Shown here: positions 10,885-63,991 of the stretch, one piece after another | How positions within the stretch are numbered: position 1 is the first letter of the stretch | Layout: every line of letters starts with the position of its first letter | Assembly (NCBI GenBank): GCA_018241125.1 | Contig: JAFEEL010000013.1 | Span: 94,043 to 158,042, forward strand | Reading direction: 5' to 3' | Origin: Pseudomonadota bacterium | GTDB lineage: Bacteria > Pseudomonadota > Gammaproteobacteria > Xanthomonadales > Xanthomonadaceae | Length of the DNA: 64,000 nt | Program-made: the position numbers and the translations under genes | The notes under the pieces: model-generated | Database searches by the model: none | What the model was told of the DNA's origin: nothing | Seen by the model: the letters and a program-made list of their open reading frames with translations, nothing else

Positions 10885-12039
10885 ATGCAGTTCGAAGACG
10901 AATCCGCGTTTGTCCGCCAATTGGCCCGCACGCCGTTGCCGCCAGCCATCCTGATCGCCGGTGTGGACGATCTGCGGGTGATCGAGGCGGCCGACGCGGT
11001 GCGCGCCAAGGCGCGTGCCGATGGTTGCGAACGCACCATCTACGATGTCGATGGCCGCTTCGACTGGGACGTGCTGGTGGGCGATTTTTCCGCGCTGAGC
11101 CTGTTCGCCAGCGCGCGCCTGCTCGATGTGCGCGTGCCCGATGGCAAGGTCGGCAAGGAGGGCAGCGAGGTCATCGCGGGCTTCTGCAAGGATCCGCCGC
11201 CGGGTACCACCTTGCTCGTCACCTGCATGGAGTGGAGCAAGCGCCACGCCGAATCGGCGTGGGTCAAGGCCATCGGCAAGGCCGGGCAGGTGCTGGCGAT
11301 GTGGGCGCTGCCGCGCCACAAGCTGCCCGACTGGCTGCTGCGGCGGATGAGCGCGCGCGGCATCGACGCCAGCCACGAGGCCGCCGAGCTGCTGGCCGCT
11401 CGCGTTGAAGGCAACTTGCTGGCGGCCGCGCAGGAGGTGGACAAATTATGTTTGCTGCTTGCGCAAGAGCGGGCTTCCAGCCGCGCCTTGCGCGAACACG
11501 GCGACGGCGAAGCCGCCGCACGTGTTCCCGGCGAACGCGAGCGTTCGCCGGCCGGGACATTCATGTCCCGGAGCCCGAGTTCGGGTTCGCGAGTGCGCAT
11601 CGACGCACCGGAAATGCAACGATTGGTCGCCGATTCGGCGCGTTTCGACGTGTTCAAGCTGGCCGATGCCTGCGTTGCCGGCGAGCCGGTGCGGGCGCTG
11701 CGGATCGTGCGCACGCTGCGCGCCGAGGGCGAGGCGGTGCCGGCGGTGCTGGGCGGATTGATTCCGAGCTTGCTGCAACTGGCCGGCTTGGCGGCGCAAG
11801 CCGCGCGCGGCGACGATTTGCGTGCGGCGATGAATGCGCAGCGCATCTGGGATGCGCGGCAGGCACAGTTTCGGCGTGCGCTCGAACGCCACGACGCCGC
11901 GCGTTGGGAAGCGTTCGCGATCGAGGCCGGGCGCATCGATCGCATGTCCAAGGGCCGCGCGGACGGCGATCCGTGGGTCGCGATGGAACGTCTGCTGGCC
12001 GCGGTGGCCAGCGCGCGTGGCCGAGCGCTGGTGGCGTGA
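10885..12039 (+). CDS. holA: DNA polymerase III subunit delta, with an in-frame repeat insertion
   Basis: Clamp-loader delta subunit, which opens the beta sliding clamp. Recognised by position between lptE and nadD and by its typical N-terminus (MQFEDESAFVRQLAR; LPPAILIAGVDDLRVIEAAD), the central region and a C-terminal helical domain (SARFDVFKLADACVAGEPVR; IDRMSKGRADGDPWVAMERL). The family is near 340 residues; this one has 384. The surplus is about 46 residues (roughly 192-237; ASSRALREHGDG to SPSSGSRV) coded by a palindrome-rich segment, described separately. The segment lies between the lid region and the collar domain, at what is probably a surface loop, and the frame is kept on both sides, so the gene is likely functional. 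Confidence 0.93.
   Translation: MQFEDESAFVRQLARTPLPPAILIAGVDDLRVIEAADAVRAKARADGCERTIYDVDGRFDWDVLVGDFSALSLFASARLLDVRVPDGKVGKEGSEVIAGFCKDPPPGTTLLVTCMEWSKRHAESAWVKAIGKAGQVLAMWALPRHKLPDWLLRRMSARGIDASHEAAELLAARVEGNLLAAAQEVDKLCLLLAQERASSRALREHGDGEAAARVPGERERSPAGTFMSRSPSSGSRVRIDAPEMQRLVADSARFDVFKLADACVAGEPVRALRIVRTLRAEGEAVPAVLGGLIPSLLQLAGLAAQAARGDDLRAAMNAQRIWDARQAQFRRALERHDAARWEAFAIEAGRIDRMSKGRADGDPWVAMERLLAAVASARGRALVA
11458..11597 (+). repeat. palindromic repeat inserted in frame within holA
   Basis: About 140 bp of near-continuous hairpins inside holA. An inverted pair GCGCAAG (11461-11467) / CTTGCGC (11487-11493) is followed by a perfect 10-bp stem 11529-11538/11541-11550 with a 2-nt loop, a perfect 9-bp stem 11552-11560/11563-11571 (CCGGGACAT TC ATGTCCCGG), and a 5-bp stem 11574-11578/11581-11585. 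The encoded segment is low-complexity, Arg/Ser-rich and foreign to the DNA polymerase delta family. Its length is compatible with an intact frame. It resembles in principle the Rickettsia palindromic elements, which sit in frame in genes. The exact borders are estimated from where family-like protein sequence resumes. Confidence 0.75.
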
Positions 12040-13228: not shown

Positions 13229-13385
13229 GAGGACTGGGAGCCGGGAGCCGGGAGCCGGAGCAGGGAGCCGGAGCAGGGAGCAGGGAGCCGGAGCAGGGAA
13301 CCGGGAGCCGGAGCAGGGAGCCGGAGCAGGGAGCCGGGAGCCGGAAGCAGGGAGCCGGAGCAGGGAGCCGGAACAGGGAGCGTTG
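13229..13385. repeat. purine-rich short-period tandem repeat (GGGAGCCGGAGCA-type)
   Basis: About 155 bp made almost entirely of GGGAGCCGG and AGCAGGGAGCCGG units in irregular alternation, starting 5 nt after the rsfS stop. The frame-wise translations are compositionally biased, so no gene is called. The region 13225-13598 otherwise holds only a second repeat fragment and the candidate tRNA-Pro promoter. Confidence 0.85.
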
Positions 13386-13827: not shown

Positions 13828-13869
13828 CCGGAGGACGGAAGACAGAGGACGGAGGACGGAAGACAGAGG
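13828..13869. repeat. purine-rich repeat, left arm of an inverted pair
   Basis: GGAGGACGGAAGACAGAGG-type units. Positions 13844-13869 match the reverse complement of 14063-14088 at 24 of 26 bases, and both differences are compatible with G-U pairing in RNA. It begins 2 nt after tRNA-Arg. Confidence 0.8.
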
Positions 13870-13935
13870 GTGATCAGTAGTCGGTAACCAGTACCAGCCA
13901 GCGATCGCTGGACTCATGGAAGTACAAGAACGGGA

Positions 13936-14020
13936 GCACAAAAACGCGGAAGCACAAAAGCGCGGAGGCACAAAAGCGCGGAAGCACAAAAGCGCGGAAG
14001 CACAAAAGCGCGGAAGCACA
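13936..14020. repeat. 16-bp tandem repeat, about five copies
   Basis: Five head-to-tail near-identical units of GCACAAAAGCGCGGAA, ending at a degenerate sixth. It lies between the two complementary arms in the tRNA-Arg/tRNA-His spacer. There are no unique spacers, so it is not a CRISPR array. Confidence 0.85.
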
Positions 14021-53605: not shown

Positions 53606-56595
53606 ACGATTCGGAAAAGGGCGGCGCCGACGGCCGCTACAAGGACACGATCAACCTGCCGCAGACGCAGTTCGCGATGAAGGCCGACTTGCCAAAACGC
53701 GAGCCGGGCATGCTCGCCGATTGGGAGCAGCGCGGGCGCTATGCGCAGGTGCAGGCGCATACCGCCGGGCGCGAACACGCCTTCATCCTGCACGATGGCC
53801 CGCCGTATGCGAACGGTGCGATCCACCTCGGGCACGCGGTCAACAAGATCCTCAAGGACATCGTCGTCCGTTCCAAGCTGCTGGGCGGTTTCCGCTCGCC
53901 GTTCGTGCCCGGTTGGGACTGCCACGGATTGCCGATCGAGATCGCGGTCGAGAAAAAACACGGCAAGGTCGGGCAGAAAGTCGATGCCGCGCAGTTCCGC
54001 AAGCTCTGTCGCGAATACGCCGGAAAGCAGATCGACCTGCAACGCACCGACTTCAAGCGCCTGGGGGTGCTGGGCGAGTGGGAGAACCCGTACCAGACGA
54101 TGGATTTCCGCTACGAGGCCGACATGCTGCGCGCGCTGGCGAAGATCGTCGCGCGCGGGCACGTCACTCGCGGCTTCAAGCCGGTGCACTGGTGCTTCGA
54201 CTGCGGCTCGGCGCTGGCCGAGGCGGAGATCGAATATCAGGACAAGACCTCGCCAGCGGTGGACGTGGCCTATGACGCGCTCGACGCGCGCGCGCTGGCG
54301 GCGAAGTTCGGTGCGAGTGTGGGCGATGGGGACATCGTGGCGGTGCCGATCTGGACCACCACACCGTGGACGCTGCCGGCGAGTTTTGCGGTCACCCTCG
54401 GCCCCGAGTTGGACTACGTGCTGGTCGAAGGCCCGCAGCGCGATGGCCGCCGGGTGTTGCTGGTGGTCGCCGAGGCGTTGGTCGAACGCGTGCTGGCGCG
54501 CTACGGCATCGATGGTGTGACCATCATGGGCCGCGCCAAGGGCGACGCATTGGATTCCCTTCTCCCTTCGGGAGAAGGTGCCCGCAGGGCGGATGAGGGC
54601 CAGAAGAACGACGAATCCTCGCGCGAGTCCGACCCCTCACCCCCACCCCTCTCCCGCCGGGAGAGGGGCTTGAAGCACCCCTTCTACGACGATCGCGAAA
54701 TCCCGATCATCCTCGGCGACCACGTCTCCGCCGACGACGGCACCGGCGCGGTACACACCGCGCCCGGCCACGGCGCGGAAGACTTCGCGGTCGGCAAACT
54801 CTACGGGCTGGTCGATGCCATCCCGCCGTCCGAACTCAACCCGGTCGGGCCCAATGGCGTGTACCTGCCGGGCACGCCGATTTTCGCCGGGCAATACATC
54901 TGGAAGGCCAACGACGCCGTCGTCGAGCTGCTGCGCGAACGCGGCGTGCTGCTGGCGCAGGCGAAGATCACCCACAGCTACCCGCATTGCTGGCGGCACC
55001 GCACGCCAGTTGCGTTTCGCACCACGCCGCAGTGGTTCATCGCGATGGATCAGGCCGGGCTGCGCAAGGACTCGCTCAAGGCGATCCACACCGATGTGAC
55101 CTGGTACCCGGCGTGGGGCGAGGAGCGCATCGCCAACATGGTCGAAGGCCGGCCCGACTGGTGCATCTCGCGCCAGCGCACCTGGGGCGTGCCGATCGCG
55201 TTGTTCGTGGACAAGCAAAGCCAGCAACCACATCCGCGCAGCGTGGAGCTGATGGAAGCCGTTGCGCTGCGCGTCGAAAAGCAGGGCGCCGATGCGTGGT
55301 ACGCGCTGGATGCGCGCGAGCTGCTCGGCGACGAAGCGCAGCACTACGAGAAGGTCACCGACATCCTCGATGTGTGGTTCGATTCGGGCGTTACGCACTA
55401 CTGCGTGCTCGACCAGCGCGAGAACCTCACCCGCGGCCCGGGCGACAAGGTGATTTATCTGGAAGGTTCCGACCAGCACCGCGGCTGGTTCCATTCCTCG
55501 CTGCTCACGTCGGTGGCCATGCACGGCACCGCGCCTTACGACGAGGTGCTCACCCACGGCTTCACCGTGGACGAGCAGGGTCGCAAGATGTCCAAGTCGT
55601 TGGGCAATGGCATCGAGCCGCAGGACGTGATGAAGGACTACGGCGCCGACATCCTGCGCCTGTGGATCGCATCCACCGATTACCGCAACGAGATGGCGCT
55701 GTCGCCGACCATCCTCAAGCGCGTGGCCGACGTGTATCGGCGCATCCGCAACACCGCGCGCTTCCTGCTCGGCAATCTGCACGGTTTCGATCCGGCACAG
55801 CACTTGCTGAACGTGAAGGACTGTCTGCTGCTCGACCAGTGGGCGGTGCAGCAGGCGCACGACACGCAGCAGGCGATCCTCGCCGCGTATGCGCGCTACG
55901 ACTTCCCCGAGATCGTGCAACGCATCGGCAACTTCTGCACCAATCAGATGGGCTCGCTGTATCTGGACATCACCAAGGATCGCCTGTACACGATGCGCGC
56001 GGACAGCCATGGCCGGCGCAGCGCGCAAAGTGCGATGTACCGCATCGCCGAGGCGCTGGTGCGCTGGCTGGCGCCGATGCTGGCGTTCACCGCCGAGGAG
56101 ATCTGGCAGCACCTGCCCGGCGAGCGTGGCGAATCGGTGTTGTTCGAAACGTGGTACGACGGGCTGCAAGCCACGCAGGACTCGCCGGAACAGCGCGCGT
56201 TCTGGGACGACCTGCTGGCGATCCGCGCCGGTGCTTCCAAACTGCTCGAAGGCATGCGCAACGCCGGCGCCATCGGCGCGGCGCTGGATGCAGAAGTGGC
56301 GTTGCATACCGATGCGGCGCGGCAAGCGCGTTTTGCAAGTGTGGCCGACGAGTTGCGATTTTTCTTCATCGTGTCCGAGCTGCATATTTCGAGCGAGGCC
56401 GCGCCCGAACACGCCGAAGTGGTGGATGTATCCGGCGGCAAGGTCGCCATCGCCGCCAGCGTGAGCCCGCACCGCAAGTGCATCCGCTGCTGGCATCACC
56501 GCGCCGACGTCGGCTCACATCCTGAGCACCCTGACATCTGCGGTCGTTGTGTCGGCAACGTCGAAGGGCCGGGCGAAAACAGGCAGTTCTTCTGA
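53602..56595 (+). CDS. ileS: isoleucyl-tRNA synthetase, with an in-frame repeat insertion
   Basis: Class I synthetase for tRNA-Ile. GTG start at 53602 overlapping the ribF stop ([20 protein letters not shown]). HIGH-type [19 protein letters not shown] near residue 65, CP1 editing region with [23 protein letters not shown] in [16 protein letters not shown], and a C-terminal zinc knuckle [27 protein letters not shown]. About 997 residues against roughly 940 for relatives: the difference is explained by about 38 foreign residues (about 319-356; [15 protein letters not shown] to SRRERG) coded by a hairpin repeat in the editing domain. The frame resumes correctly at [20 protein letters not shown]. 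Confidence 0.96.
54557..54670 (+). repeat. hairpin repeat inserted in frame within ileS
   Basis: A perfect stem CCTTCTCCC (54558-54566) / GGGAGAAGG (54570-54578) at one end and CCCCTCTCCC (54646-54655) / GGGAGAGGGG (54659-54668) at the other, with about 67 bp between. The right half matches the element at 15872-15913 before clpP. It encodes Pro/Ser/Arg-rich sequence foreign to the synthetase. The outer pattern, a TTCTCCC hairpin then a GGGCGGATGAGGG segment and a CCCCTCTCCC hairpin, resembles an intergenic repeat I recall from high-GC proteobacteria; that is memory, not a search. Confidence 0.82.
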
Positions 56596-63877: not shown

Positions 63878-63991
63878 AGCAGGCTGTTGAAAAACAGCCT
63901 GCTGATGCGATCCATGGACGGATCGCACGCCAATCAAACACGCAAGTGTTTGATTTGGCGGAGCCGAGTACGGGCATGTACCGGACTCGGC
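63878..63991. repeat. array of four consecutive perfect hairpins
   Basis: Stem 1: 63878-63887 with 63894-63903 (the pair AGCAGGCTGTT/AACAGCCTGCT, 11 bp). Stem 2: TGCGATCC 63906-63913 / GGATCGCA 63920-63927. Stem 3: AATCAAACAC 63932-63941 / GTGTTTGATT 63946-63955. Stem 4: GCCGAGT 63963-63969 / ACTCGGC 63985-63991. They follow each other with 2-10 nt gaps directly after the integrase stop. The last bases, GCGTTGAAA, may start another unit. No open frame is supported here. Confidence 0.8.

Follow-up and report, generated by a model that had tools for sequence, protein, structure and literature searches.

The holA gene of this bacterium raises the question of how the delta subunit of DNA polymerase III came to contain residues that are foreign to its family and encoded by a run of palindromes. 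The gene (positions 10885-12039, forward strand, of the window, by which is meant the whole stretch of 64,000 nucleotides analysed) encodes 384 amino acids, matches NCBIfam TIGR01128 with 208 bits (cutoff 80), and lies among leuS, an LptE-like gene (below the NCBIfam cutoff), nadD and rsfS; it is the single holA match genome-wide, and its reading frame is open along the whole length. The answer favoured here, with a probability of roughly 0.8 for the explanation as a whole, including entry, tolerance and upkeep, is that the palindromic segment belongs, as a single copy, to an old and dispersed family of multi-hairpin elements of about 115 bp.

The inserted segment of holA

Codon-level comparison with holA of the genus (L010-L013) places an in-frame insertion of 46 codons at 11458-11595 (forward strand): the first atypical codon is CTT (11458-11460), and homology within the genus returns at CGC (11596-11598). 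These 138 nt correspond to five codons (VDRKT) in L011 of genome G003, a net gain of 123 nt or 41 codons, so that the first-pass annotation was right about the position, length and frame of the segment and about its 46 or so family-atypical residues. The segment is presumably translated, judging from the open frame. Aligned with solved delta chains (8vam_A, with 1jqj_C giving the same first stretch; we take both to be E. coli delta), the insert maps between residues 192 and 197, in what is presumably an exposed loop, a placement made by sequence alignment to these chains alone. An AlphaFold2 model of HolA, from a two-row alignment, was too poor (mean pLDDT 44) and carries no claim.

holA is present in 59 of the 60 relatives searched. 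Among 29 relatives' holA loci, L024 and L028 (wrong ORF) were excluded, and the segment is missing from 26 of the remaining 27 genes read (in a few of which the loop is longer by up to about 9 aa); none of the other four genomes of the genus (G001-G004) has it. The alignment with related holA genes that had been proposed as a check therefore finds the segment absent from the relatives read, and the combination that would mark it as normal protein sequence, namely relatives carrying it as such and no other copy in the genome, is not what is found. The holA gene of G011 (L014) has a different expansion at the same loop, rich in G, S and A and exceeding L011 by 23 aa, in which neither of two models of the repeat described below (R1 and R3) reported an element.

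As DNA, the segment folds into five hairpins in succession, all on the forward strand. Two longer, imperfect hairpins, absent from the first-pass annotation, come first: hairpin 1 (11461-11493), whose apical part GGGC..TCC..GCC is conserved and which shows two-sided covariation in the family, and hairpin 2 (11494-11527), whose stem GAACACG/CGTGTTC covaries in alignments A2 and A4 and is not recovered in the A5 consensus. Three perfect stems with loops of 2 nt follow, namely hairpin 3 (11528-11551; 11 bp, outside the family consensus structure), hairpin 4 (11552-11571; 9 bp, CCGGGACAT..ATGTCCCGG) and hairpin 5 (about 11573-11586, stem 11574-11585; 5 bp, outside the core model). The perfect inverted repeats reported earlier are thus present, including the 9-bp and 5-bp stems with their 2-nt loops, but they stand in tandem rather than nested, and the stem given as 10 bp has 11. 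The conserved part of the repeat family corresponds to hairpins 1 and 4. In the RNA fold, the ends of the segment are able to pair with each other.

Folding of 11450-11600 gives z-scores of -6.2 (DNA) and -6.0 (RNA), with none of 200 shuffles as good; when 45 codons of the insert are recoded synonymously, 2 of 500 versions fold equally well. Two abutting perfect palindromes (stem at least 8, loop at most 4, at most 5 nt apart) occur at one place in the real window, while among 100 first-order Markov shuffles of the 64 kb one contains any; single perfect palindromes with a stem of at least 9, of which the window has 15 against 2-13 in 20 shuffles, are by themselves less special than the abutting pair. 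Elsewhere in the window, two perfect palindromes with stems of 11 and 10 bp lie close together at the edge (63878-63955), a GGGAGCC-type minisatellite follows rsfS (13236-13381) with further short arrays at 13829-13869 and 13918-14020, and two nearby CTCTCCC/GGGAGAG hairpins (54558-54668) represent a different repeat type.

A dispersed repeat family and its placement

With blastn, the segment has 43 matches in its own genome, those outside the segment being weak pieces (the best at E 0.02), and 40 of 149 genomes of the family have a match at E of 0.001 or less, mostly short; the best non-self match of a peptide search in six frames has E 0.0012. Three of the best four blastn matches could be aligned and served as seeds (L055, short and with unalignable flanks, was left out); all three lie outside genes in other genera, and together with holA they show two-sided changes at 15 of 35 pairs. 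Model R1, made from holA and these seeds, finds 2-6 copies in each of five genomes of the genus at E of 0.01 or less, with 12 of 40 genomes positive; three other families of the order also have R1 copies, 25 of them in G038. Two-sided changes affect 21 of 28 pairs in alignment A4 (24 rows, holA included) and 16 of 21 pairs in A5 (35 rows, without holA). The pattern CCGGNNCATNCATGNNCCGG matched mainly the holA segment and a separate triple array. This array (L041, about 1416-1800, on contig C48 of the same genome at about 11.86-12.24 kb) repeats a palindromic unit of 123 bp, with CCGGCGCATCCATGTGCCGG-like cores, three times head to tail; the R2 matches to it are weak (26-28 bits).

Because R2 was trained with the holA row, only R3, the covariance model built from A5 with holA excluded, counts as independent. 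The full length of the R3 model matches the segment at 11457-11571 (forward strand), the core of the dispersed element, with 70.5 bits and a window E-value of 2.6e-11, the next scores in the window being 23.2 bits (a match truncated by the window edge) and 15.0. At E of 1e-6 or less, it finds at least 68 copies in 23 of the 149 family genomes, 10 of them in the genome of the holA insert; these counts are lower bounds, since the large surveys scored limited candidates per genome (24 and 13) under strict filters. The genome search proposed with the first-pass annotation thus yields nine copies besides holA, too diverged for blastn and visible with the structure model only. The core is 106-124 nt long across copies, typically about 115 bp. 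In a class-wide sample, with few candidates per genome scored, the same genome alone is positive (1 of 274), which is a specificity check more than proof of absence; the family belongs to Lysobacteraceae-type bacteria. Rfam 15 gives no family match at gathering score, tRNAs only, for window positions 11300-11750 or for eight loci (seven with copies of the family, plus L041 with its separate array), and a search of the open-licence literature found no description of such a repeat. The family is real, structurally distinct from the palindromic elements of Rickettsia though similar to them, has one copy inside holA, and is apparently undescribed.

Many copies are found at the ends of genes. Of the 68 copies, 35 begin between -6 and +12 nt past a same-strand stop codon that closes a coding-like open frame of 300 nt or more, against 0-3 copies at nine control offsets and 3 of 68 on the opposite side, and 57 of 68 have the end of a coding-like ORF at most 250 nt before the copy on either side. 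Twenty-nine of the 35 stop-adjacent copies have a co-directional coding-like start within 200 nt, some starts overlapping the last bases of the element. These 35 are not independent: once genes with equal last residues are pooled, about 23 different gene ends are left. Host genes ending in KKGAL[EQ]WE recur across three genera, in five genomes (in that of the holA insert the gene is nuoA-like, below the curated cutoff), and those ending in [KQ]TGKPLRN in four genomes of four genera. Scanning of ten upstream genes, over their last 330 codons at most, identified three above the curated cutoff (ftsA, a yicC-type endoribonuclease and prs), and the other seven show likeness only, to nuoA, FadB, cyanophycin synthetase, GcvT, YceI, CdsA and GspE/PilB. 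Elements directly follow ftsA and the nuoA-like gene at L194 and L186, respectively; ftsA and nuoA are usually in tight operons. At 5 of 60 loci scanned (L117, L105, L188, L054 and L199), a copy has a tRNA gene no more than about 40 nt away. L117 (G002:C40:21449-21829) has three tandem copies of the element next to a tRNA-Gln gene, and neighbouring copies were also seen at G150:C18, G150:C123 and G047:C23. With so many copies behind stop codons, the family is not primarily protein-coding, and the stop-adjacent copies probably act as intercistronic structure.

In-frame copies, stem upkeep and rival explanations

Frames spanning a copy with at least 25 codons on each side number 121, in 57 of the 68 copies, and in 11 of them GC3-GC2 reaches at least about 0.2 on each side. 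Four of these were accepted because protein families are recognizable on both flanks, giving in-frame copies at three loci: holA, an OppA-like gene (in the same genome and in G001) and a gene for an Lhr-type helicase (G003). The remaining seven, all antisense to the element and three of them behind KKGAL[EQ]WE genes, were not counted as in-frame. The OppA-like (SBP_bac_5) insert has PF00496 matches on both sides, and its site is empty in G002, G003, G004 and G015. In the helicase gene, where it is flanked by Lhr domains on either side, the element is antisense, and the site is empty in six aligned relatives from other genera; within the genus, the sole further lhr match, in G001, has a shorter filler at the site (63 nt less), so that this comparison is not clean. 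The net gains are 123, 117 and 123 nt for holA, the OppA-like gene and the helicase gene, respectively. Ribosome hopping across the insert was set aside as an explanation, since all three inserts keep the frame and contain no stops.

Reading frames or strands differ among the three loci, and thus no shared peptide is carried. Open frames across all copies (304 of 408 versus 256 expected from shuffles) are in mild excess, which helps in-frame tolerance. The two OppA-like inserts differ by 3 synonymous and 14 nonsynonymous changes over 38 codons, with no third-position excess, whereas the flanks (the right sample including about 12 codons of the insert edge) differ by 48 synonymous and 28 nonsynonymous changes (Fisher p 0.0009). 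In the same pair, 5 of 7 changed stem pairs are altered on both sides and still paired; pairing has therefore been maintained, and the peptide has not. A selfish element like those of Rickettsia, carrying a peptide suited to insertion into proteins, would agree with in-frame copies at three loci and with the excess of open frames; it is quite improbable in view of the three different frames or strands, the preponderance of nonsynonymous differences in the OppA-like peptide and the position of about half of the copies behind stop codons.

Stem pairing is also kept across the family. In A5, with 35 copies and 21 pairs, 96.2% of cells are paired, compared with 73.8% in shuffles and 29-41% when the partner is slid, and 153 cells are two-sided and 13 one-sided, compared with 38.7 two-sided cells in shuffles and 11-29 in slid controls; none of 500 shuffles matches A5 in either paired percentage or two-sided cells, although rows partly share descent and cells are not events. 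Of about 688 paired cells, only 15 are G-U. In what PMC3733652 says of REP stems, frequent G-T pairs are taken as a sign of an RNA role. The rarity of G-U and one-sided cells in A5 favours pairing kept at the DNA level. At six orthologous loci of the element, 13 pairwise comparisons give 45 two-sided and 21 one-sided changes that keep pairing, 20 one-sided and 6 two-sided changes that break it, 450 unchanged pairs and 17 gapped, while a control with the 3' partner slid gives 5, 47.5, 77 and 11 for the four kinds of change; the comparisons share branches and are not independent, and the nuoA-like locus alone accounts for 21 of the 45. Conversion could have overwritten a copy at an orthologous locus with the sequence of another, and at two of the six loci the right flanks are 65-81% alike, below the left flanks. 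Template switching can create and maintain the stems of RNA genes, as PMC8794818 argues. Across inverted arms it can keep pairing without selection, and selection can keep it too.

A structure acting in the mRNA or DNA of holA, in processing, pausing or stability, with stems kept by selection and not by mutation bias, is unlikely: it would fit the dominance of two-sided changes at orthologous loci, a placement behind stop codons that suggests an RNA role for the family, and the recurrent host gene ends in five and four genomes, yet G-U pairs are few, in-frame copies are few, in unrelated genes and in one case antisense, and relatives manage without the insert. It is hardly credible that the segment is an ordinary loop expansion with palindromes made on the spot by template switching and no repeat family involved, because holA matches in full length a model built without it and the apical parts of hairpins 1, 2 and 4 are common to intergenic copies, even if the loop of G011 expanded independently and hairpins 3 and 5 lie outside the family consensus. 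The insertion in holA is known from one draft assembly of 67 contigs, as an artefact or chimera might be; against this very improbable origin, the frame is kept, both flanks have a normal codon pattern, and the analogous OppA-like insert is common to two separate genomes.

Under the preferred explanation of a dispersed element, one copy would have entered holA in the lineage of this genome, at the short loop after residue 192 (as aligned), displacing about five codons. Tolerance of the insertion would follow from a net gain divisible by three, a frame free of stops and a loop that accepts length changes, the last point being indicated by the different expansion of G011 at the same spot. The encoded peptide may be a spacer without sequence constraint, a property measured on the OppA-like copy and not on holA. 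The stems would stay perfect because both arms change; template switching across them as the DNA is replicated is the most likely cause, and selection on structure is the alternative. The elements appear to be mobile from the presence and absence of copies. Tentatively, they might constitute a new class of structured, stop-adjacent repeats whose arms are kept complementary by a DNA-level process (template switching) even when translated, in which case stretches of HolA and the OppA-like protein would be dictated by hairpin upkeep and not by protein function. The present case is a coding palindromic insertion outside Rickettsia, in a single-copy replication gene, accompanied by its whole family, by empty sites and by an orthologous coding pair that has retained stem pairing but not the peptide. 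With this pair and the empty sites, the choice between selection and mutation mechanics as the source of perfect stems becomes testable, and the placement behind stop codons points to an unstudied intercistronic structure.

Comparison with known systems

Rickettsia is the best-known source of palindromic insertions in protein-coding sequence, according to parts of PMC10969869. The parallel with Rickettsia palindromic elements drawn in the first-pass annotation holds for in-frame insertion and for empty sites at three loci, and fails for a conserved peptide. Those elements, as portrayed in portions of PMC10969869 and PMC3733652, are likewise palindromic (about 150 bp), inserted in frame within conserved genes, and outside genes in about half of their copies. 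The present elements differ in occurring in other bacteria, in consisting of several separate hairpins, in directly following a stop codon in many copies, in their strong two-sided stem changes, and in lacking a conserved peptide or frame.

REPs of the GTAG/CGTC type are also short palindromes near gene 3' ends, some of them within replication or repair genes such as recB of Xanthomonas, but the REP is a unit of 20-40 bp with an end tag (all from passages of PMC3733652), whereas the present element is a composite of about 115 bp. Within 8 nt of the ends, the tags GTAG/CTAC, CGTC and GACG occur in 0, 1 and 0 of the 68 copies, respectively, and no strong element (best 20 bits) was found within about 1.5 kb of 30 RAYT loci (PF01797), these being 30 of the 32 matches listed, from 26 genomes. 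BOX, ERIC and Correia elements, which are MITE-like, are similarly non-autonomous dispersed repeats able to fuse to reading frames, as parts of PMC10969869 relate; they have terminal inverted repeats and target duplications, neither of which was established for the present elements, where the flank profiles of the 68 copies yielded no common border motif, target-site duplication or exact border. The coding palindromes of Nematomorpha mitochondria, as described in PMC6649704, are comparable in that perfect inverted repeats are kept within protein-coding genes; there, both arms encode conserved protein regions, whereas here the encoded peptide is an extra loop.
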